Of a stretch of 40,240 nt of DNA, positions 3,715 to 14,831 are shown piece after piece. Origin of the DNA: an uncultured Pelagibacteraceae bacterium (GTDB lineage: Bacteria > Pseudomonadota > Alphaproteobacteria > Pelagibacterales > Pelagibacteraceae). The notes under the pieces were generated by a model. That model worked only from the letters and a program-made list of their open reading frames with translations. It did not search any database and was not told the DNA's origin. The stretch lies in contig CACBDD010000005.1 of the NCBI GenBank assembly GCA_902537905.1, positions 1 through 40,240 on the forward strand. The letters run 5' to 3'. The position numbers and the translations under genes were made by a program. Numbering within the stretch: the first letter of the stretch is position 1; each line of letters starts with the position of its first letter.

Positions 3715-4636
3715 TTAAAACTTTATCCTCAAATTCCATAAATAGTGTCTCTTCGTCTAAATTATATATTTTAGTGTCATTAATTTTTTTTAAAAAATAA
3801 TGATAATGATGAAATAAATTAATATTTTTTGTAGATATATTGTTTCTAAAATAAACTTCAATAAAAGAATAAATTAATTGAATAATTGGTTTACTTTTTT
3901 TGTAAGCTTTACTTGTTATTAAACTTTTCAAAAAAATATCTAAATTACTATTCTTAAGATCTAAATCATAATCTTCAGCTAGTTTTAATAATTCATATAA
4001 TTTACCTGGTGTTATAAAATAACTTAATAAATTTTGATTTATTAAGTTATGAACATCATCATTTATTAATTGATTGATAATTTCAATAGACTGATCATTT
4101 GTTAAAAAAATTTTGAAATTTAAACATCTTGACTTAAGTGTAGGTAAAACTCTTTTGTTATTATTAATTAAGATAAAATTTATATTTTCATTAGGTTCTT
4201 CCAATACTTTTAGTAAAGCATTGATTGAATTCAAATTTAATAACTCAATATTATCAATTAAAACAAATCTTTTTTTTTTATTAAATGAGGATTTATTTAG
4301 ATTAATTATTAAGTCTCTTATTTGATTTATATCTATATTTTTTTTATCTTCTGCAACGTCTATAAGATTAAAATTTGGATTAGATTTATTTTGTATAAGT
4401 TTAAATGATTTATTCTCTAAATTAATTTCATTATTTTTAATATCATATGAATTTTCCTCATCTTCTGATAATACAAAGTTTATTAAATGATAACCTAAAG
4501 TTGCTTTACCTATTCCTTTTTCTCCAGATAAAAGTATTTTATTTGGTAATTTGTTATTTAAAAATAATTTACATAAGTGATTAAAAATTTCGTGATGTCC
4601 ATATAAATTATGTTGTATAGATGAATTTAATTTCAT
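3707..4636 (-). CDS. holB: DNA polymerase III delta' subunit-like AAA+ protein
   Basis: LLSGEKGIGKATLGYHL (Walker A), LLKVLEEPNENINFILINNN, SRC motif; between metG and tmk. Confidence 0.85.
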   Translation of the reverse strand: MKLNSSIQHNLYGHHEIFNHLCKLFLNNKLPNKILLSGEKGIGKATLGYHLINFVLSEDEENSYDIKNNEINLENKSFKLIQNKSNPNFNLIDVAEDKKNIDINQIRDLIINLNKSSFNKKKRFVLIDNIELLNLNSINALLKVLEEPNENINFILINNNKRVLPTLKSRCLNFKIFLTNDQSIEIINQLINDDVHNLINQNLLSYFITPGKLYELLKLAEDYDLDLKNSNLDIFLKSLITSKAYKKSKPIIQLIYSFIEVYFRNNISTKNINLFHHYHYFLKKINDTKIYNLDEETLFMEFEDKVLNE

Positions 4637-7223: not shown

Positions 7224-8214
7224 TTTTAAATTTATCCTTTAATGTACAAACAGCTAAAGCAAATCTCAATGACCTGTTCCATTGTAAAATTATTTCATAA
7301 TTATCGAATACTACATAAGCTGGATTTAAAGTTTCAGCATCAGGAATTATATCTTTATCCGGTGTTATTATTGCTACCTCTAAATCATTGTAAGTATTTG
7401 GGATAATTGAATTATTTTGAATATATTTTCTAAAAAACTTTAATTGATTTTTGTCATGTAATTTTTTTGCAGAAATATTTAAATATTTTTTTGGAATTTC
7501 GTTTTTTAAATCAATTCTGTAAAAACATGGTCCATTAGTCTTCCAACCTATTTTTTTCAAATAATTACTTGCGGAAGCGTACGCATCAGGATTGCTTTTT
7601 AAGTTTATAGAACCATTTTTATCATAGTCGGTAGCATAATTTTTTATCGTAGAGGGCATGAATTGGAAATAACCAAAAGCACCTGCCCATGAACCATACA
7701 ATGTTTTATAATTAATTTTTTTTTTTTCTATTAAATTTAAAAGTATTAAGAGTTCTTTAGTAAAAAATTCAGATCTTCTTTTATCAAAACTTAATGTGGC
7801 AAGTGAAGAAAGAATATCCATTTTACCTACATAAGTTCCAAAATTTGTTTCTATCCCCATTAATGATAAAAGAAGTTCTTTTTCTATATTAAACTCATTT
7901 TCAACAGAATTAATTAATTTTAAATTATCAATATATAATTTTTTTCCTAATTTAACTTTTTTGTCGGTGGTTCTTTTTGTTATGTATGTTTTTGTATCTT
8001 CATAAAACTCAGGTTGATATCTATCATATTTAATTACATTTGATAAAAACTGAGTGTTAGACATAACTAGATCAAATGTTTCTTCTGAAATATTATTTTT
8101 AAGAGCAATTTTTTTGAAATTTTTTTTCCAATTTTCAAATTCAATATTTACGTCTGCTAGACTGATATTATGTAAAAAGAGAGATAAAAAAAATATAAGT
8201 TTAATTAGTTTCAT
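7213..8214 (-). CDS. lytic murein transglycosylase (MltB family)
   Basis: LLSLMGIETNFGTYVGKMDILSSLATLSFD, GSWAGAFGYFQFMPSTIKNYATDYDKNG; signal peptide. Confidence 0.92.
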   Translation of the reverse strand: MKLIKLIFFLSLFLHNISLADVNIEFENWKKNFKKIALKNNISEETFDLVMSNTQFLSNVIKYDRYQPEFYEDTKTYITKRTTDKKVKLGKKLYIDNLKLINSVENEFNIEKELLLSLMGIETNFGTYVGKMDILSSLATLSFDKRRSEFFTKELLILLNLIEKKKINYKTLYGSWAGAFGYFQFMPSTIKNYATDYDKNGSINLKSNPDAYASASNYLKKIGWKTNGPCFYRIDLKNEIPKKYLNISAKKLHDKNQLKFFRKYIQNNSIIPNTYNDLEVAIITPDKDIIPDAETLNPAYVVFDNYEIILQWNRSLRFALAVCTLKDKFKNEL

Positions 8215-9079
8215 ATAAATCTCTCAAATATATAATTACAGCAAACCAGATTATAATAAAACTTACTAATTTATTAAATGAGAAAACTTCATTGTAATAA
8301 AAAAAACCTAATAAAAATTGAAGAGTTGGTGTAATGTAGAAAATCATTCCTGACGGTCCTAAACCACATAATTCAACTCCTCTTACATATAAAAATAGAG
8401 GTATTACAGTCATTGGACCGGCTAATAATATTATTAACATCATTGAAGGATTGGATAATGAGAAATCATTGTAACCTTTGGCTGCAATCATATAAAATAC
8501 AATTATTGCAATTGGTAATATAAATAAACTTTCTATTAAAAGACCAATATCAGTATCTACATTTATTTTTTTTCTCACTAAATTGTAAAACCCCCAACTT
8601 AAAGCTACAATTAAACCAACCCAAGGAAGAGATTTTAAGCTTACAAAAATTAAATATAAAATTGATAAAATAACTAACGTAATTGAAAATATTCTTTTAT
8701 TATTTAATTTCTCTTTAAAAAAAATATAACCAAGAAGCACACTTAATATTGGCATTATAAAATAACCAAAACTAGCATCAATTATTCTATTAGTAGCGAT
8801 AGCGTAAATCCAAACTCCCCAATTAAGAAAAATCAAGAAACCTGAGATAAATAAATAAATAAGATTTTTTTTATTTTTAATTATTTTTAAAAAAATATCC
8901 CATTTAGAAAAAAAGAAGGTTGTTAATATTAAAGTCAACGTTGTCCATAAACATCTGTGAATTACAAGTTCAATATAACCAATAAAAGTAACATATTTAA
9001 AATACAAAACTCCAAAAAAACCCCACCAAAAAGATCCAAATCCAGCAAGTAAAAGACCTTTATTAAATTCTTTATTCAT
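8201..9079 (-). CDS. rarD: EamA/DMT family transporter, RarD-like
   Basis: ~10 TM helices; GSFWWGFFGVLYFKYV, ELVIHRCLWT, GPMTVIPLFLYVRGVELCGLGPSGMIFYITPTLQFLLG. Confidence 0.87.
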   Translation of the reverse strand: MNKEFNKGLLLAGFGSFWWGFFGVLYFKYVTFIGYIELVIHRCLWTTLTLILTTFFFSKWDIFLKIIKNKKNLIYLFISGFLIFLNWGVWIYAIATNRIIDASFGYFIMPILSVLLGYIFFKEKLNNKRIFSITLVILSILYLIFVSLKSLPWVGLIVALSWGFYNLVRKKINVDTDIGLLIESLFILPIAIIVFYMIAAKGYNDFSLSNPSMMLIILLAGPMTVIPLFLYVRGVELCGLGPSGMIFYITPTLQFLLGFFYYNEVFSFNKLVSFIIIWFAVIIYLRDLYETN

Positions 9080-9164
9080 TGTGCGTTGATATTAGTCTTT
9101 AATGAGTTTTTTACGACTATTTTATGGTTGAATTAAATAATTATAATTATAAAACCTTGCTCAC

Positions 9165-9203
9165 GGAGAGATGGCTGAGCGGTTGAAAGCACCGGTCTTG
9201 AAA
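9165..9203 (+). repeat. tRNA-Ser(UGA) 5'-half fragment 1 (39 nt; left junction of unit 1, inferred attL)
   Basis: Exact match to nt 1-39 of the intact tRNA at 14479-14568; diverges after the anticodon loop (cttgaaaTACCAAG versus cttgaaaACCGGC). Confidence 0.97.
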
Positions 9204-9319
9204 TACCAAGTTTACCCTACCCTCTTTAAGACGATTCACATACTTATCAAGACAATCCTCATTTTTTGAAATTTAGCTTTTACGAAAAATACATCATTCC
9301 TGACTAGCCTAAGCTAGAA

Positions 9320-9340
9320 AACTTGTACCAAACTTGTACC
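9320..9340 (+). repeat. Unit 1 left arm repeat R1: AACTTGTACCA AACTTGTACC
   Basis: Two 11-bp-period copies; same 21-mer at 11664-11684. Confidence 0.95.
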
Positions 9341-9351
9341 AAGAATTATAT

Positions 9352-11622
9352 TTATCTGTAACTAATTAAAACTTTATCTGGGTCACCAGATAAAGATGGA
9401 TTTTGTTCTCTTCCAAGCTCTGCTGCCTTTTGAGATACATTATCATCCATATAAGAAAGTAACTCACCGTTAGTTATTTTTTTATCTTGGTTGCTATCTG
9501 CCTTACCTTCTAATCCCTTCATAAGATAATATGAAAATATTCCGTGTTCAGCTTCTTTTAAACCAGATGATATTTGATCTAATTTAGATGCAGTAAATAT
9601 TGTAAAGTTATCAGGTATTCCTTCTTGATCATCTGCAACAATTCTTATTGGACGTGCTGATGCAAGTAGCATTTTTTCGTCTCTTGAAATACCGCTATAA
9701 CAAGTGTCCATAAACATAGTTACAGATTTCGGATTTAATTTAATAATTTGTTCAAATAGTTCTGTTCTTGATAAAGCAGTTCTACTTAACAAATCTGGGT
9801 CACTATCTTGAGGTAAAATATATAATTCTTCACCGTTATTAGATGCTAAACCGTGACCAGCAAAGAATATTATTAATTCTGTTTGATTATTCTTAATTTT
9901 GCTTGGTAACCATTTATTTATCGTACTAATAGATTTTATTAAACTTGCGTCTTCATCTACCAATAATTTAATATTAGCTTTTGGTATTCCAAATCCTTTT
10001 CTTGCGTATTCATAAAAATACTGAGCATCTAAATTAGCAAAATTAGCAGCTGGTGTTTGTTCGTATTTTTCAATACCAATGATTAATGCTACTCTGTTTT
10101 TATTAGATCTTGATTTAATTAATGAAGGATTTAATTGCTCAAGTTTATCTGCAACTATAGTTTCTTTAATATCAACAGTAACATTTACAATTTTTGGCTT
10201 AGATTTATTGCCCCATTGGTCTATTGCAACTATTTTTAATTGTTCATCAATAGGGCTAAATCTTGGAATTGAAAATTTACCATCTTTAACAACTATAGTT
10301 TCTCCATCTACTTGGACAAATAATTTCTTAGATTTATCGATTACTTTACCTTTAATTTCATAATTGCTGTCATTAACAGTTATATTCTCAGCTATCTCAA
10401 TTATTGGTGCATCATTATCTTTATCTTCAGGTTTAAATTCCTCTTGTTTAGACTCTTCTACCTTAGCAATTTTAACTTTTTTCTTTTGTTTTATAGGAAT
10501 CTTGGGTTTCCAGTAACCAAGAGGTTCTAAAGTTCTGAAATTTTTTTCTTCTACAATGCCAATTGTATCAACTAAGTATGCATAAAAAAGTTCGTCTTTA
10601 TAGTTCTGATCTATAATAAAATTAGAATTACACGTATAGTATGGGTTATCAAATCTTCTAATTTTATATTTGTATTCATTTGTTTTCGTATCATACGACC
10701 TATGATTATTTACACAAAATTTGATATTTTTATCCATCTCCTGCGTTTGACTTGGTTTTCCTTTAGCAATTTCAGTTTTTTTATCTTCTATTGATGGTGT
10801 TCCAAACAATATATTTCTAGCATCAACTTTAATAATAATTTCACGATCTTTAATAAGATTAACTTTATAAGGTGCGCATAGTTGAATTGCTCTCAAAACA
10901 CTTTCTGAAAGAACTTTGTAAAATTCTTGACCTGGTTGTTTTAATCTCTTTTGATCAAGTATTTGTGTATGAAATACTGAACCATCATAGTCTAATAGCA
11001 ACTTTACTTTTACTATAAGATTTTTTTCATTTACTGGAAGTCCCATAGGAAGACTAAGACAGCTGCTTATTTTATTTGAAATCATAGTAGAAACTATTTC
11101 ATTACTATCACCGAAAGAATAAATGTCTGGTTCAGGGTTTTTTGCTTTTGAAATTAAATCAGCTATCTTATCTGGATCGGTCAACAATTCATTTTCTTTA
11201 GATTCTTTTTTAGCTAATTTTGTTTTTTCCAATTTGTCAATCTTTGCAAAAGTTTTGGAAAAATAATTTCGATGATTAGAAGGAAGTAAATTTTTAAAAT
11301 TAGCTAATTTAAGATTTTTCCATAATGGTGAACTGAATGCAATATTGCCTTTGCCATAAGTTTTTTCAAAAAATAAATATAGTGATTTATTTTTCTTTTT
11401 ACTTATTTCGTACAAATCATATTTTGGTCCTGTTGTAGTTCTGTAACACTCTGCTTTAAGCAAATGAGTTCTTTTGTCAGTTATGGATACTTGTTCTTTG
11501 TAGCTTTTTTTTGGATCCTCCAGATAAATTTTTACACAAAATACCCTGCCCGCTTCAGCATTTATACTAAATACTAATCCAAAACCAAAAACTATAAATA
11601 GATATGCTAGTAACCTCTTCAT
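9352..11622 (-). CDS. secreted caspase-like (peptidase C14) protein with TolA-C-like and Ig-like domains and an EF-hand-like loop
   Basis: Signal peptide MKRLLAYLFIVFGFGLVFSINAEA; KISSCLSLPMG..LIVKVKLLLDYDGSVFHTQILDQKRL..SESVLRAIQLCAPY (TolA-C-like); DNDAPIIEIAENITV..IKGKVIDKSK (Ig-like); RVALIIGIEKY, IIFFAGHG (catalytic His), TMFMDTCYSG (catalytic Cys); DSNQDKKITNGEL. Confidence 0.92.
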   Translation of the reverse strand: MKRLLAYLFIVFGFGLVFSINAEAGRVFCVKIYLEDPKKSYKEQVSITDKRTHLLKAECYRTTTGPKYDLYEISKKKNKSLYLFFEKTYGKGNIAFSSPLWKNLKLANFKNLLPSNHRNYFSKTFAKIDKLEKTKLAKKESKENELLTDPDKIADLISKAKNPEPDIYSFGDSNEIVSTMISNKISSCLSLPMGLPVNEKNLIVKVKLLLDYDGSVFHTQILDQKRLKQPGQEFYKVLSESVLRAIQLCAPYKVNLIKDREIIIKVDARNILFGTPSIEDKKTEIAKGKPSQTQEMDKNIKFCVNNHRSYDTKTNEYKYKIRRFDNPYYTCNSNFIIDQNYKDELFYAYLVDTIGIVEEKNFRTLEPLGYWKPKIPIKQKKKVKIAKVEESKQEEFKPEDKDNDAPIIEIAENITVNDSNYEIKGKVIDKSKKLFVQVDGETIVVKDGKFSIPRFSPIDEQLKIVAIDQWGNKSKPKIVNVTVDIKETIVADKLEQLNPSLIKSRSNKNRVALIIGIEKYEQTPAANFANLDAQYFYEYARKGFGIPKANIKLLVDEDASLIKSISTINKWLPSKIKNNQTELIIFFAGHGLASNNGEELYILPQDSDPDLLSRTALSRTELFEQIIKLNPKSVTMFMDTCYSGISRDEKMLLASARPIRIVADDQEGIPDNFTIFTASKLDQISSGLKEAEHGIFSYYLMKGLEGKADSNQDKKITNGELLSYMDDNVSQKAAELGREQNPSLSGDPDKVLISYR

Positions 11623-11641
11623 AGTATTACTTTACCAAATG

Positions 11642-11647
11642 ATTATA
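11642..11647 (-). promoter_or_regulatory. candidate -10 (TATAAT) of unit 1 caspase gene
   Basis: Minus strand CCTATAATCATTTGGTAAAGTAATACT-ATG; conserved in unit 2. Confidence 0.5.
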
Positions 11648-11663
11648 GGATTTTACAGGATGA

Positions 11664-11684
11664 AACTTGTACCAAACTTGTACC
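11664..11684 (+). repeat. Unit 1 right arm repeat R1: AACTTGTACCA AACTTGTACC
   Basis: Identical 21-mer to 9320-9340, same orientation. Confidence 0.95.
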
Positions 11685-11759
11685 TTTTGAAAATTTCTTA
11701 AAAAAAAAGCTCTGTTTTTTTGTTGAATTTATAATTTATACTTATAAAACCTTGCTCAC

Positions 11760-11798
11760 GGAGAGATGGCTGAGCGGTTGAAAGCACCGGTCTTGAAA
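11760..11798 (+). repeat. tRNA-Ser(UGA) 5'-half fragment 2 (39 nt; junction between unit 1 and unit 2)
   Basis: Identical to 9165-9203 and 14479-14517, followed by the same TACCAAGTTTACCCTAC as fragment 1. Confidence 0.97.
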
Positions 11799-11914
11799 TA
11801 CCAAGTTTACCCTACTCACTTTAAGACGTTTCACATACTTATCAAGTCATTGCTTACGTTTTGAAATTTAGCTTTTACGAAAAACGCATCATTCTTGAAC
11901 AGCCTAAGCTCCAA

Positions 11915-11936
11915 AACTTGAAGTAAACTTGAAGTA
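11915..11936 (+). repeat. Unit 2 left arm repeat R2: AACTTGAAGTA AACTTGAAGTA
   Basis: Two perfect 11-bp copies; matched at 14383-14402. Confidence 0.95.
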
Positions 11937-11946
11937 AAAATTATTT

Positions 11947-14343
11947 TTATCTATAACTAATTAAAACTTTATCTGGATCACCTGATAACATCGGTTCTTG
12001 TTGTCTGTTGTTAATAAATGCTTCCTCAGAAACATTTTGTTTTAAATAAGCTATTAATTCTCCATTTGTAATTTTTTTATCTTGATTGGAATCTGCCTTA
12101 CCTTGCATACCCATCATTAGATAGTAAGAAAATATTCCGTGTTTAGCTTCTTCAATGCTACCAGAAGTTTGGTCATAATTTGAAGCAGTAAATATAGTAA
12201 AATTATTTTGTACTTCTTGCTCCTCTGCAACTAATCTTATTGGTCTTAATCCGGCAACTAACATTCTTTCATCTCTTGTTTGACCGCTATAACAAGTATC
12301 AAAAAACATCGTAACTGAGTTAGGCTCAACTCTATTTATTAAATCAAAAATTTCTAATCTTGAAAGTGCAGTGTATTGTAATAAATCAGCATCACCATCT
12401 TGAGGTAAGATATATAGGTTTTTACCATCATCAGACGCTAAACCGTGACCAGCAAAGAAAACATAAATATCTTTATTTTTTCCTCTTGCAATTTGTGGAA
12501 GCCACAAAGTTAATGCTTTTAAGGTTTCTCCTCTTGTTGCATTCTCATCAATTAAAACTTTTATATTTTTATTAGGTATTCCCAAGGCTCTGTTTGCATA
12601 AGCTCTAAATGCATTTGCATCTCTATTTGCATATGGTGCATCAATATTTTTAAGAGTTTTATATTTTTCAATTCCTATAATTATTGCTATTTTATTTTTA
12701 TCTTGCTTAACTTTTATCTTGCTTGGATTGGGTTTTTCATAAGATCTTAATTCAGCTATTTCCTTAAATTCAACTTTAATATTTATCGTTTTTTCAGATT
12801 TATTTTGCCATTGATCTATAGCAACTATTTTAATCTTATCACCTGCATCAGGATCAACAACGAAACCTTCTAATTCAAAATTACCTCTTTTTGATATTTT
12901 TAAAGGTCTACCATTAGCTTCTAGATATAACTTGCTCTTGTCATTTACCTTCCCCTTCAAAGTATAAGTTTGGCTATCAACAATAATATTTTGAGCTATC
13001 TCAATTACAGGTGCATCATTATCAATATCTCTATTCTCAGGTTTAAATTCCTCTTGTTTAGGTTCTTCTACTTTAGCAACTTTAACTTTTTTCTTAGGGG
13101 TTGTTGTTAATTTTTCTAAAACATTTTTTTCATATGCAGTAAGTAGCTCTAAATATTTAGTTTTTGAGACTGCAAAAAAATATTTACTACAATTTTTTTT
13201 AATTTGAAAATAAAGACCTGGTGATTTACTTAAACCAACAAAATTTTTAATTCTTTCATGAGATTTTACATAAGAATGTGTGCAGTACAGAAGGTTATCC
13301 TCATTTTGGCTTGGTTCTGCTTTAGCGATTTGGGTTTTTTTATCTAAACTATTTATAAAATTTTCAATAGGTGAAATATCAAGTCCCCATGCTTGATATT
13401 GACTTCTTAAATTGGCTAACCTGACTTTGAAAAATTTATCATTTTCTTTATAATCTAGTGCAGCTGCAATATACTCATTTTCAGATATCCTTGATACAGT
13501 TACGGGTCCTCCTGTAGGACCCTGAACAGCTTTACAACTTTTCTTTGAAATAAAATAATCACCTCTGTTATCACAAAAATATATATTTGATTTAATTTCT
13601 TTTTTCTGCGTTTGGCTTGGTTCTGCTTTAGATATTTGGGTATTTTCGCAATCAAAACCTTTTTTTAAATTATCAAAATTTATTTTTAAATCGTTAAATT
13701 TTAAAGCAGATCTAACAAAATTATCTGGAATAGGAGTTTTTTTAAAATAATTTATTTCATTTTCTATACGGTCAATATCGATTTTAATTTTATTTTTTAA
13801 ATTATTACAGCTGTTAAAACTAAAATTTGTAGTATTTAATTTTTTATATTCAAACTCTTCTTTTCTATTAGTCAACTCTTTAATATCTTCTTCAAAATTG
13901 GTTAATTTTGTGAAGAAAAGTTCTCTGTCAAAATTTTGGCTTGGTTCTTTCGTTTTATTCTTTTTGTTCTCATTTGTATTTATTTCTGCAGCAAATGCTC
14001 CTCTTTTTAATGTTTTTAAATCTTTAATAATAATATTAATAAATTTTTTTTCTTTAAAATTAGAATTTTTTAATTGTGAAGATAATTTTTTTACAGCATT
14101 GTCCATGCTATCAATAGAATTATTTACATAATTAGTTTCTGCTTCTGAAATACCTTTACTTAATGCTTTTGAATAAACTAATCGCTCTAATGTTCTTAAT
14201 TCTTTCTGCAAACATTCTAAGTATTTTACATCTGGTTTCACTTCTAAATTTGAACATGCGTATTTTTCTTGAGCAATACAACTTGTATTTAACACCAACC
14301 CCAAACCAAGAATGATGAACAGATATGCTAGTAGACGCTTCAT
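11947..14343 (-). CDS. secreted caspase-like (peptidase C14) protein with coiled-coil/Cys-module N-terminus, Ig-like domain and EF-hand-like loop
   Basis: Signal peptide MKRLLAYLFIILGLGLVLN; repeated AKAEPSQ linkers; DNDAPVIEIAQNIIV..LKGKVNDKSK; KIAIIIGIEKY, VFFAGHG, TMFFDTCYSG; DSNQDKKITNGEL. Confidence 0.92.
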   Translation of the reverse strand: MKRLLAYLFIILGLGLVLNTSCIAQEKYACSNLEVKPDVKYLECLQKELRTLERLVYSKALSKGISEAETNYVNNSIDSMDNAVKKLSSQLKNSNFKEKKFINIIIKDLKTLKRGAFAAEINTNENKKNKTKEPSQNFDRELFFTKLTNFEEDIKELTNRKEEFEYKKLNTTNFSFNSCNNLKNKIKIDIDRIENEINYFKKTPIPDNFVRSALKFNDLKINFDNLKKGFDCENTQISKAEPSQTQKKEIKSNIYFCDNRGDYFISKKSCKAVQGPTGGPVTVSRISENEYIAAALDYKENDKFFKVRLANLRSQYQAWGLDISPIENFINSLDKKTQIAKAEPSQNEDNLLYCTHSYVKSHERIKNFVGLSKSPGLYFQIKKNCSKYFFAVSKTKYLELLTAYEKNVLEKLTTTPKKKVKVAKVEEPKQEEFKPENRDIDNDAPVIEIAQNIIVDSQTYTLKGKVNDKSKLYLEANGRPLKISKRGNFELEGFVVDPDAGDKIKIVAIDQWQNKSEKTINIKVEFKEIAELRSYEKPNPSKIKVKQDKNKIAIIIGIEKYKTLKNIDAPYANRDANAFRAYANRALGIPNKNIKVLIDENATRGETLKALTLWLPQIARGKNKDIYVFFAGHGLASDDGKNLYILPQDGDADLLQYTALSRLEIFDLINRVEPNSVTMFFDTCYSGQTRDERMLVAGLRPIRLVAEEQEVQNNFTIFTASNYDQTSGSIEEAKHGIFSYYLMMGMQGKADSNQDKKITNGELIAYLKQNVSEEAFINNRQQEPMLSGDPDKVLISYR

Positions 14344-14363
14344 AGTATTACTTTACCAAATGA

Positions 14364-14369
14364 TTATAG
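14364..14369 (-). promoter_or_regulatory. candidate -10 (TATAAT) of unit 2 caspase gene
   Basis: Minus strand CCTATAATCATTTGGTAAAGTAATACT-ATG, same as unit 1. Confidence 0.5.
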
Positions 14370-14382
14370 GATTTTATAGGAC

Positions 14383-14402
14383 AACTTGAAGTAAACTTGA
14401 AG
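14383..14402 (+). repeat. Unit 2 right arm repeat R2: AACTTGAAGTA AACTTGAAG
   Basis: Matches 11915-11934 except the final base, same orientation. Confidence 0.93.
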
Positions 14403-14478
14403 CGACATTAAAATTTATAAAAAAAACAGCTCTGTTTTTTGTTGAATTTTACAATTATACTTATAAAACCTTGCTCAC

Positions 14479-14568
14479 GGAGAGATGGCTGAGCGGTTGA
14501 AAGCACCGGTCTTGAAAACCGGCAAAGGGGCAACTCTTTCCTGGGTTCGAATCCCAGTCTCTCCGCCA
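14479..14568 (+). tRNA. tRNA-Ser (anticodon TGA/UGA)
   Basis: GGAGAGA/TCTCTCC acceptor stem, anticodon stem CCGGT-CTTGAAA-ACCGG, long variable arm, GGGTTCGAATCCC T-arm, encoded GCCA end. Confidence 0.97.
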
Positions 14569-14573
14569 TCACT

Positions 14574-14831
14574 TTAATATTTAAAGCTTTTAAACATCAA
14601 ACTGATATTGTTATTTTCTATTTCAACATCAGTTTCAAAACCATTATAAAAATTATACAAATTTGTATCATCAATTTTAAGAAATTTTTTTAGATCAATT
14701 AAATCTTTCTCTTGTAAATCATTTATATATTTTTTAACAAATTTACCTAAAAGTTTATCCATTTCCTTGGTACCTCGATAATTAGAACGATAAATAATTT
14801 TTTTTTTTAATTCATCTATATTGCTACTCAT
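14574..14831 (-). CDS. sdhE: FAD assembly factor SdhE-like
   Basis: IIYRSNYRGTKEMDKLLGKFV (RGxxE-type signature), 85 aa. Confidence 0.9.
   Translation of the reverse strand: MSSNIDELKKKIIYRSNYRGTKEMDKLLGKFVKKYINDLQEKDLIDLKKFLKIDDTNLYNFYNGFETDVEIENNNISLMFKSFKY

Follow-up and report, generated by a model that had tools for sequence, protein, structure and literature searches.

Two stacked caspase cassettes lacking an integrase at a tRNA-Ser gene of an uncultured SAR11 bacterium, and the helper elements that may mobilise them

The window, by which is meant the whole stretch of 40,240 nucleotides analysed here, contains between a rarD-like transporter gene and sdhE a tRNA-Ser(UGA) gene whose 5′ half (39 nt) is present in three identical copies, of which only the third continues into a full tRNA with the anticodon TGA (Table 1). 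The copies bound two units of 2.6–2.7 kb with one caspase (Peptidase_C14) gene in each, and the repeat reaches beyond the 39 nt to approximately 45 nt upstream of the tRNA. The window belongs to the draft genome (757 kb, 57% complete) of an uncultured Pelagibacteraceae bacterium, in which no further copies of the 39 nt were found at ≤3 mismatches (control matches: 0). Among public genomes, its relatives are single-cell assemblies of uncultured Pelagibacteraceae or SAR11, and it should be kept in mind that the genomes compared are incomplete drafts, many of them from single cells.

Table 1. Features of the tRNA-Ser(UGA) locus, with positions counted from the first nucleotide of the window.
Feature	Position	Strand	Evidence
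rarD-like EamA transporter, conserved left neighbour	8201-9079	-	PF00892; syntenic in all fetched rarD-bearing loci
Native tRNA-Ser leader/promoter region, shifted leftwards by the insertions	9080-9164	+	93% to G063 empty-site leader; unit-borne leaders 58%
Displaced native tRNA-Ser(UGA) 5′ half	9165-9203	+	exact 39-nt repeat
Proposed overlap region: anticodon loop CTTGAAA, last 7 nt of the displaced half	9197-9203		
Unit 1 left end, conserved att-like region	9204-9320	.	alignment A2; sequence-only model R1
Unit 1 left arm repeats ACTTGTACC	9321-9340 (9321-9329, 9332-9340)	.	fixed offset +117; same as right arms
Unit 1 cargo, caspase-like protease, 756 aa	9352-11622	-	PF00656 (E 1.6e-13) and alignment
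Unit 1 right arm repeats ACTTGTACC x2	11665-11684	.	offset -95
Unit 1 right end: promoter-like leader and element-borne tRNA-Ser 5′ half (11760-11798)	11685-11798	+	
Unit 2 left end	11799-11915	.	86% to unit 1 left end, 93% to that of G543
Unit 2 left arm repeats ACTTGAAGT x2	11916-11935	.	offset +117
Unit 2 cargo, caspase-like protease, 798 aa	11947-14343	-	PF00656 (E 7.3e-14); closest relative in G452, 68.7%
Unit 2 right arm repeats ACTTGAAGT, ACTTGAAGC	14384-14403	.	offset -95
Unit 2 right end, element-borne leader now preceding the intact tRNA	14404-14478	+	97% to G543 and G662 ends
Intact tRNA-Ser(UGA): 5′ half (14479-14517) from unit 2, 3′ half native	14479-14568	+	ARAGORN
sdhE, conserved right neighbour	14574-14831	-	PF03937

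Copies 1 and 2 depart from the tRNA directly 3′ of the 7-nt anticodon loop CTTGAAA, where both pass into TACCAAGTTTACCCTAC. In the intact gene this loop is bracketed by the anticodon stem CCGGT...ACCGG, and anticodon loop and stem correspond, according to a review, to the 7-bp overlap and the core-site organisation of tyrosine recombinases (PMC8371274). An end of the identity at the 3′ edge of CTTGAAA is what the core site of a tyrosine recombinase would be expected to show (PMC8371274). In G063, the closest relative fetched (core genes 89–91% identical at the DNA level), rarD, tRNA and sdhE follow each other uninterrupted, which is an exact empty site, and the outer flanks of the window, when joined at the tRNA, are 93% identical to G063 across the junction. 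The leader of the leftmost copy is of this native type, those of the other two copies are not, and each unit thus supplies a leader and a 5′ half that rebuild the tRNA. The leader preceding the intact tRNA was not recognised in a promoter scan, the sole match of which overlaps the arm repeats described below. By inference, new units insert into the intact tRNA, which would make unit 2 younger than unit 1. In all three arrays that contain a full element (G662, SAG-MED01 and AG-909-L14) it is this element that adjoins the tRNA.

The locus had been read before from the sequence alone as an insertion at tRNA-Ser, with three 39-nt copies but a single full tRNA, divergence of the first two copies at the same base after the anticodon loop, and one large minus-strand caspase-like ORF per interval, all of which was borne out. 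That reading had also predicted that the same junctions would elsewhere be empty, hold a single unit or hold different cargo, and all three situations were encountered.

Each unit consists of a left end of approximately 117 nt, two 9-nt arm repeats, the cargo, the same arm repeats once more, and a right end in which the tRNA 5′ half follows a promoter-like leader; left ends and right ends align across units. The arm repeats are paired at an 11-nt period and are observed at fixed offsets, approximately +117 counted from the core for the left pair and −96 counted from the tRNA for the right pair. In unit 1 they read ACTTGTACC at either end and in unit 2 ACTTGAAGT at either end, only the last copy being ACTTGAAGC. 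This agreement within and difference between units, already stated in the sequence-only reading, is found also in other genomes. At tRNA-Ser the best left and right arm copies, as extracted by script, are identical within 22 of 27 elements as compared with 4.6% between elements, and the mismatches total 10 versus a mean of 77 after permutation, with none of 20,000 permutations reaching 10; the result is unchanged when one representative per code is used. Units at tRNA-Leu(UAA) have the same design (28 units, offsets +126/−103), with arms exact within the unit in 17 of 28 as compared with 3.4% between units (0 of 20,000 permutations). It should be noted that relatedness among the elements makes these permutation counts too favourable, although the pairing is still visible unit by unit. 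What had been said of minimal single-gene units is true of both units in the window, but not as a rule, since unit size extends from 251 bp without a gene up to 14.7 kb.

Two gene-less mini units were seen (L041 ~4125-4376, 251 bp; L220 2708-2975, 267 bp; both in reverse complement), of which that in L041 retains one arm pair, as if the cargo had been lost between the arm repeats. The 14.7-kb unit, in G662 (L180 1950-16652, reverse complement), contains several caspases; its left arms are ACTTGTACC and its right arms ACTTGAAGT/C, which are the codes of the window units and in the order found there, as would result from the fusion of two cassettes. A conserved RNA structure of the left end was ruled out, the consensus having only 7 pairs and −1.3 kcal/mol.

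In the genus, tRNA-Ser 5′ halves were detected in 105 of 161 genomes. With the window counted in, 79 of 101 tRNA-Ser loci are empty (rarD-tRNA gap 49–157 bp), and others contain units of 0.25–7.5 kb, including a tandem pair in G497. The left-end model R1, which rests on sequence only and on 12 training sequences, most of them among its own matches, yielded, at E<1e-14, 30 left ends distributed over 25 of the 399 genomes, among them a triple array (G534) and a pair (G662). The 5′ half of tRNA-Leu(UAA) is present in 2–4 copies in 22 of the 60 genomes with a match, including the window's own genome. There, a 5.5-kb unit at tRNA-Leu(UAA) (L213, G000:C18:5500-15342) has right arms ACTAGAAAC, the code of a helper element in AG-903-K07 (see below); a left arm pair was looked for in this unit and not found. 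In L065 (11517-13479) and L067 (11023-14191), both with the tRNA oriented +, the space between rarD and tRNA-Ser is occupied by insertions in which no tRNA half copy is recognisable; that in L067 has two large ORFs (490 and 467 aa), neither of which was identified.

Both caspases of the window start with a signal-peptide-like segment, are variable in the N-terminal half and contain an EF-hand-like loop. In that of unit 1 the variable half is followed by an Ig-like region and by the caspase domain with the motifs FFAGHG and DTCYSG, and the EF-hand-like loop lies close to the C-terminus. The catalytic His/Cys motifs AGHG and D(T/A)C(Y/F)SG are kept in all aligned caspase homologues, and a PDB sequence search gave a weak match to metacaspase-9 (E 0.0053). 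A sensor-effector role in defence is plausible, the function being inferred without assay data. Other cargo at tRNA-Ser comprises, besides further caspases, restriction-modification systems (MmeI-like type IIG, type III, type I and Eco57I-type) and NB-ARC, NOV_C, HNH, UvrD and MORN proteins, and that at tRNA-Leu an Mrr nuclease, autotransporters, pilin-like arrays, a trypsin-like protease and ATP-grasp proteins. The cargo thus consists mostly of host-benefit genes, defence above all. Two of the tRNA-Leu cassettes (L204 1315-6866 and L223 2330-8016) are made up of many pilin-like genes with an N-terminal methylation motif, whose first residues are common and whose remainders differ.

The two units have a common layout, similar left ends and the C-terminal caspase domain in common, as would be expected if one caspase unit had been tandemly duplicated and had then diverged. 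However, the two caspases are only 48.6% identical to each other and are nearer to caspases of cassettes in other genomes (71.7 and 68.7%, respectively), the arm codes match within the units and differ between them, and the unit ends have nearly identical counterparts in distant genomes. Over 233 bp, the right end of unit 1 shares 93.6% identity with that of G452, of which sdhE-recG is only 77% identical, and the right end of unit 2 is 97.0% identical over 232 bp to that of G662 (core 80.5%) and 95.9% over 222 bp to that of G543 (core 74.6%). These cross-genome relations (ends 94–97%, core 75–80%) refute tandem duplication as the main process; the sequence-only reading had judged it a poor fit, and there is hardly any room left for it. 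The identities show that unit ends have been transferred recently between species.

Homologous recombination, between tRNA flanks or between the common ends, could in principle bring about such a transfer in place of site-specific recombination. This would account for the mosaic of cargo behind conserved ends: caspases cross arm codes, the type of unit 1 being found with ACTTGAAGT arms in G543 and that of unit 2 with ACTTGTACC arms in G452, and the 14.7-kb element of G662 has different codes on its left and right. They also cross tRNA targets, the caspase of a tRNA-Leu cassette in G452 being 71% identical to that of a tRNA-Ser cassette in G543. It would not account for native flanks that are unchanged at an exact crossover, nor for the identical exchange point and unit layout at the unrelated tRNA-Leu gene. 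Homologous recombination is therefore improbable as the process that moves the cassettes and likely contributes to the shuffling of cargo only.

Site-specific movement calls for a recombinase, and an integrase gene was found neither in the two units of the window nor in any other cassette. The window's genome encodes one PF00589 protein (292 aa), which is unassigned. Autonomous relatives, referred to here as helpers, were found in other genomes. In G662 (AG-439-C21) a 9.0-kb element adjoining the caspase-rich unit encodes an integrase of 558 aa, a primase-helicase and a RusA-like resolvase; six proteins of one helper, compared with Pfam and PHROGs, gave matches to integrase, primase and RusA-like families and none to a relaxase or a conjugation family, not every helper gene having been scanned. 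Related helpers are present at tRNA-Leu(UAA) in AG-414-K15, AG-909-L14, AG-903-K07 and SAG-MED01. The helper integrase is a tyrosine recombinase (phrog_1 integrase, E 6.5e-15; PF00589 in 3 of 5 members) in which R365, R498 and Y531 are invariant. A PDB sequence search revealed no real relative, and with the predicted structure, which is of moderate quality (pLDDT 72.6, pTM 0.44), Foldseek found 22 matches at E≤0.001, all of them tyrosine recombinases, including Tn1549 Int, Cre and lambda Int. A more distant integrase in the same alignment (L207/L199, 539 aa) ends just before tRNA-Ser(GCU), which is possibly a third target of the family.

Helpers with arms matching those of cassettes were observed. 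Their right arms lie at the cassette offsets in 4 of 5 cases (SAG-MED01: −91/−80 with the 9-mer used), and their left arms lie near or within the start of the integrase gene; in the tRNA-Ser helper they are at +130/+155 as compared with +117/+128 in cassettes, and the sequence from core to arm is only ~35–55% identical to that of most cassettes. Four of the five helper codes recur in cassettes, namely ACTTGAGAC (Ser) and ACCAGCACA, ACCAGTACC and ACTAGAAAC (Leu) in 2, 2, 2 and 5 cassettes, respectively; for GTTCCACAC there was no match among the cassettes, and no helper with the window codes ACTTGTACC or ACTTGAAGT was found. All 11 cassettes with a helper code are located at that helper's own tRNA, which only 4 of 50,000 label shuffles reached, a count that overstates the significance, since neither the cassettes nor the helpers are phylogenetically independent. 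The integrases of AG-414-K15 and AG-909-L14, whose arms differ, are 95% identical after the first ~150 residues and only 58% within these, which suggests that the N-terminus reads the arms. This is inferred without binding data: in the moderate model the N-terminus shows strands and a helix, and the match to an arm-binding domain is only weak (3ju0, E 0.31).

Helpers are rare (7 of 399 genomes) and are far outnumbered by cassettes. The integrase of this family is absent from 27 of 28 genomes with tRNA-Ser cassettes (A3 profile) and was not found in the 28 tRNA-Leu units. In viral contigs and phage records the helper integrase was searched for and not found, the left-end junction was not found when viral contigs were scanned for its exact pattern, and a 33-nt junction search of phages gave chance matches only.

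The cassettes could then be immobile relics, decayed elements like CIMEs that have lost their integrase and move by accretion in cis together with a full neighbour, or never. CIMEs and gene-less microCIMEs are already known (PMC7563491), the cassettes do lack an integrase, some ends are decayed (G497, G137, G458), and a full element adjoins the tRNA beside cassettes in three arrays. However, mobilisation in cis does not require the identical arm code at both ends of a cassette, which is the rule, the ends have moved between species recently, and full elements are far fewer than cassettes. That the cassettes are relics is unlikely, yet it deserves more weight than the two alternatives considered above. 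The favoured interpretation, to which we assign a probability of about 0.8, is that the units are non-autonomous integrative cassettes that are mobilised in trans and addressed by a tRNA core and an arm code.

Such cassettes would move as follows. A tyrosine recombinase supplied from elsewhere would join a circular cassette to the tRNA-Ser gene by strand exchange across the 7-nt anticodon loop; the cassette's own leader and tRNA 5′ half would rebuild the tRNA, and the old 5′ half would be pushed to the left. Since the next cassette would enter the rebuilt tRNA, arrays would grow at the tRNA, with the newest unit adjoining it. In a two-part address, the catalytic and core-binding domains would recognise the tRNA core as the first part, and the second would be the 9-nt arm repeat at both ends, presumably read by an exchangeable N-terminal domain of the matching helper integrase. 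Helper action in trans and the circular form are inferences: neither an excised circle nor a rejoined empty site within one population was seen, and excision was thus not observed. A further generalisation, for which the odds appear to us about balanced, is a distributed cassette system common to SAR11 populations: most mobile units would be enzyme-less, the two-part address of anticodon-loop core and diversifying arm code would sort cassettes into compatibility groups served by rare helpers, and swap or diversification of the integrase N-terminus would make new groups.

By kind, the cassettes come near to CIMEs (PMC7563491) and to the tRNA-cassette islands of streamlined marine bacteria (PMC7771536, PMC10872708). 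With CIMEs and microCIMEs they share att sites without an integrase, tandem stacking at one gene beside full elements, and units of 1.2–13 kb with cargo or of 130–220 bp without genes (PMC7563491); like CIMEs, they keep att sites and have lost integrase and transfer genes. CIMEs, however, have their origin in conjugative elements and are mobilised in cis (PMC7563491), whereas the SAR11 cassettes have one arm code at both ends and occur predominantly singly. In the additive flexible genomic islands of Actinomarinales (PMC7771536) and at tRNA-Lys of Methylopumilus (PMC10872708) small cassettes are likewise added at tRNAs, leaving a direct repeat of part of the tRNA; in the portions of these two accounts available to us no recombinase, arm repeats or helper code are given, and, as far as these portions go, insertion into the anticodon loop with restoration of the 5′ half sets the SAR11 cassettes apart. 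Tycheposons and VEIMEs, known here only from partial, secondary accounts (PMC11389934, PMC10872708), are also tRNA-associated tyrosine-recombinase elements of streamlined ocean bacteria, and the SAR11 helpers, too, carry a primase. As far as these accounts go, tycheposons are cargo elements of 4–200 kb, unlike the bulk of the SAR11 units, which are recombinase-less cassettes of a few kb with paired arm codes, and a tRNA-flanked element with its own tyrosine recombinase is matched in part by the helpers and not by the window units. A recombinase gene inside, by which tRNA elements are recognised, is likewise found only in the autonomous relatives.

The use of the tRNA 5′ half, the 7-bp overlap in the anticodon loop and the reliance of the rebuilt tRNA on an element-borne leader are shared with the anticodon-loop integrases of the pTN3 type, which belong to autonomous archaeal elements (PMC8371274). 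It was noted for integrases of the pT26-2 type that tRNAs with a long variable arm (Ser, Leu) are interchangeable targets, and a rebuilt tRNA driven by an element promoter is seldom encountered in bacteria (PMC8371274). The likeness to an integron array seen in the sequence-only reading holds for the stacking only, the autonomous relatives encoding a tyrosine recombinase of the phage type that targets the anticodon loops of tRNAs. In mobile integrons, too, stacked cargo enters at one array end and the recombinase comes from outside the cassette; the SAR11 cassettes, however, use tRNA core and arm sites rather than attC hairpins, and their recombinase comes from another mobile element. No description of a paired, diversifying arm code matching rare helpers was found in the literature searched, and the cassettes represent a family that is widespread and had not been filed before.

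Few cells on Earth are as abundant as those of SAR11, whose genomes are streamlined and have few recognised mobile elements. The cassettes are a concrete means, and one that can be counted, by which such cells acquire and lose genes for defence and the cell surface, with the tRNA half and the arm pairs as hallmarks. Because the arm code makes the matching of helper and cassette predictable from sequence, the question of how flexible genes are exchanged can be put to the test in vitro with a single integrase and short DNAs as substrates. Finally, the right arms (e.g., those of unit 2) lie just upstream of the start of the minus-strand cargo gene and may overlap its promoter, so that arm binding could also control expression of the cargo.
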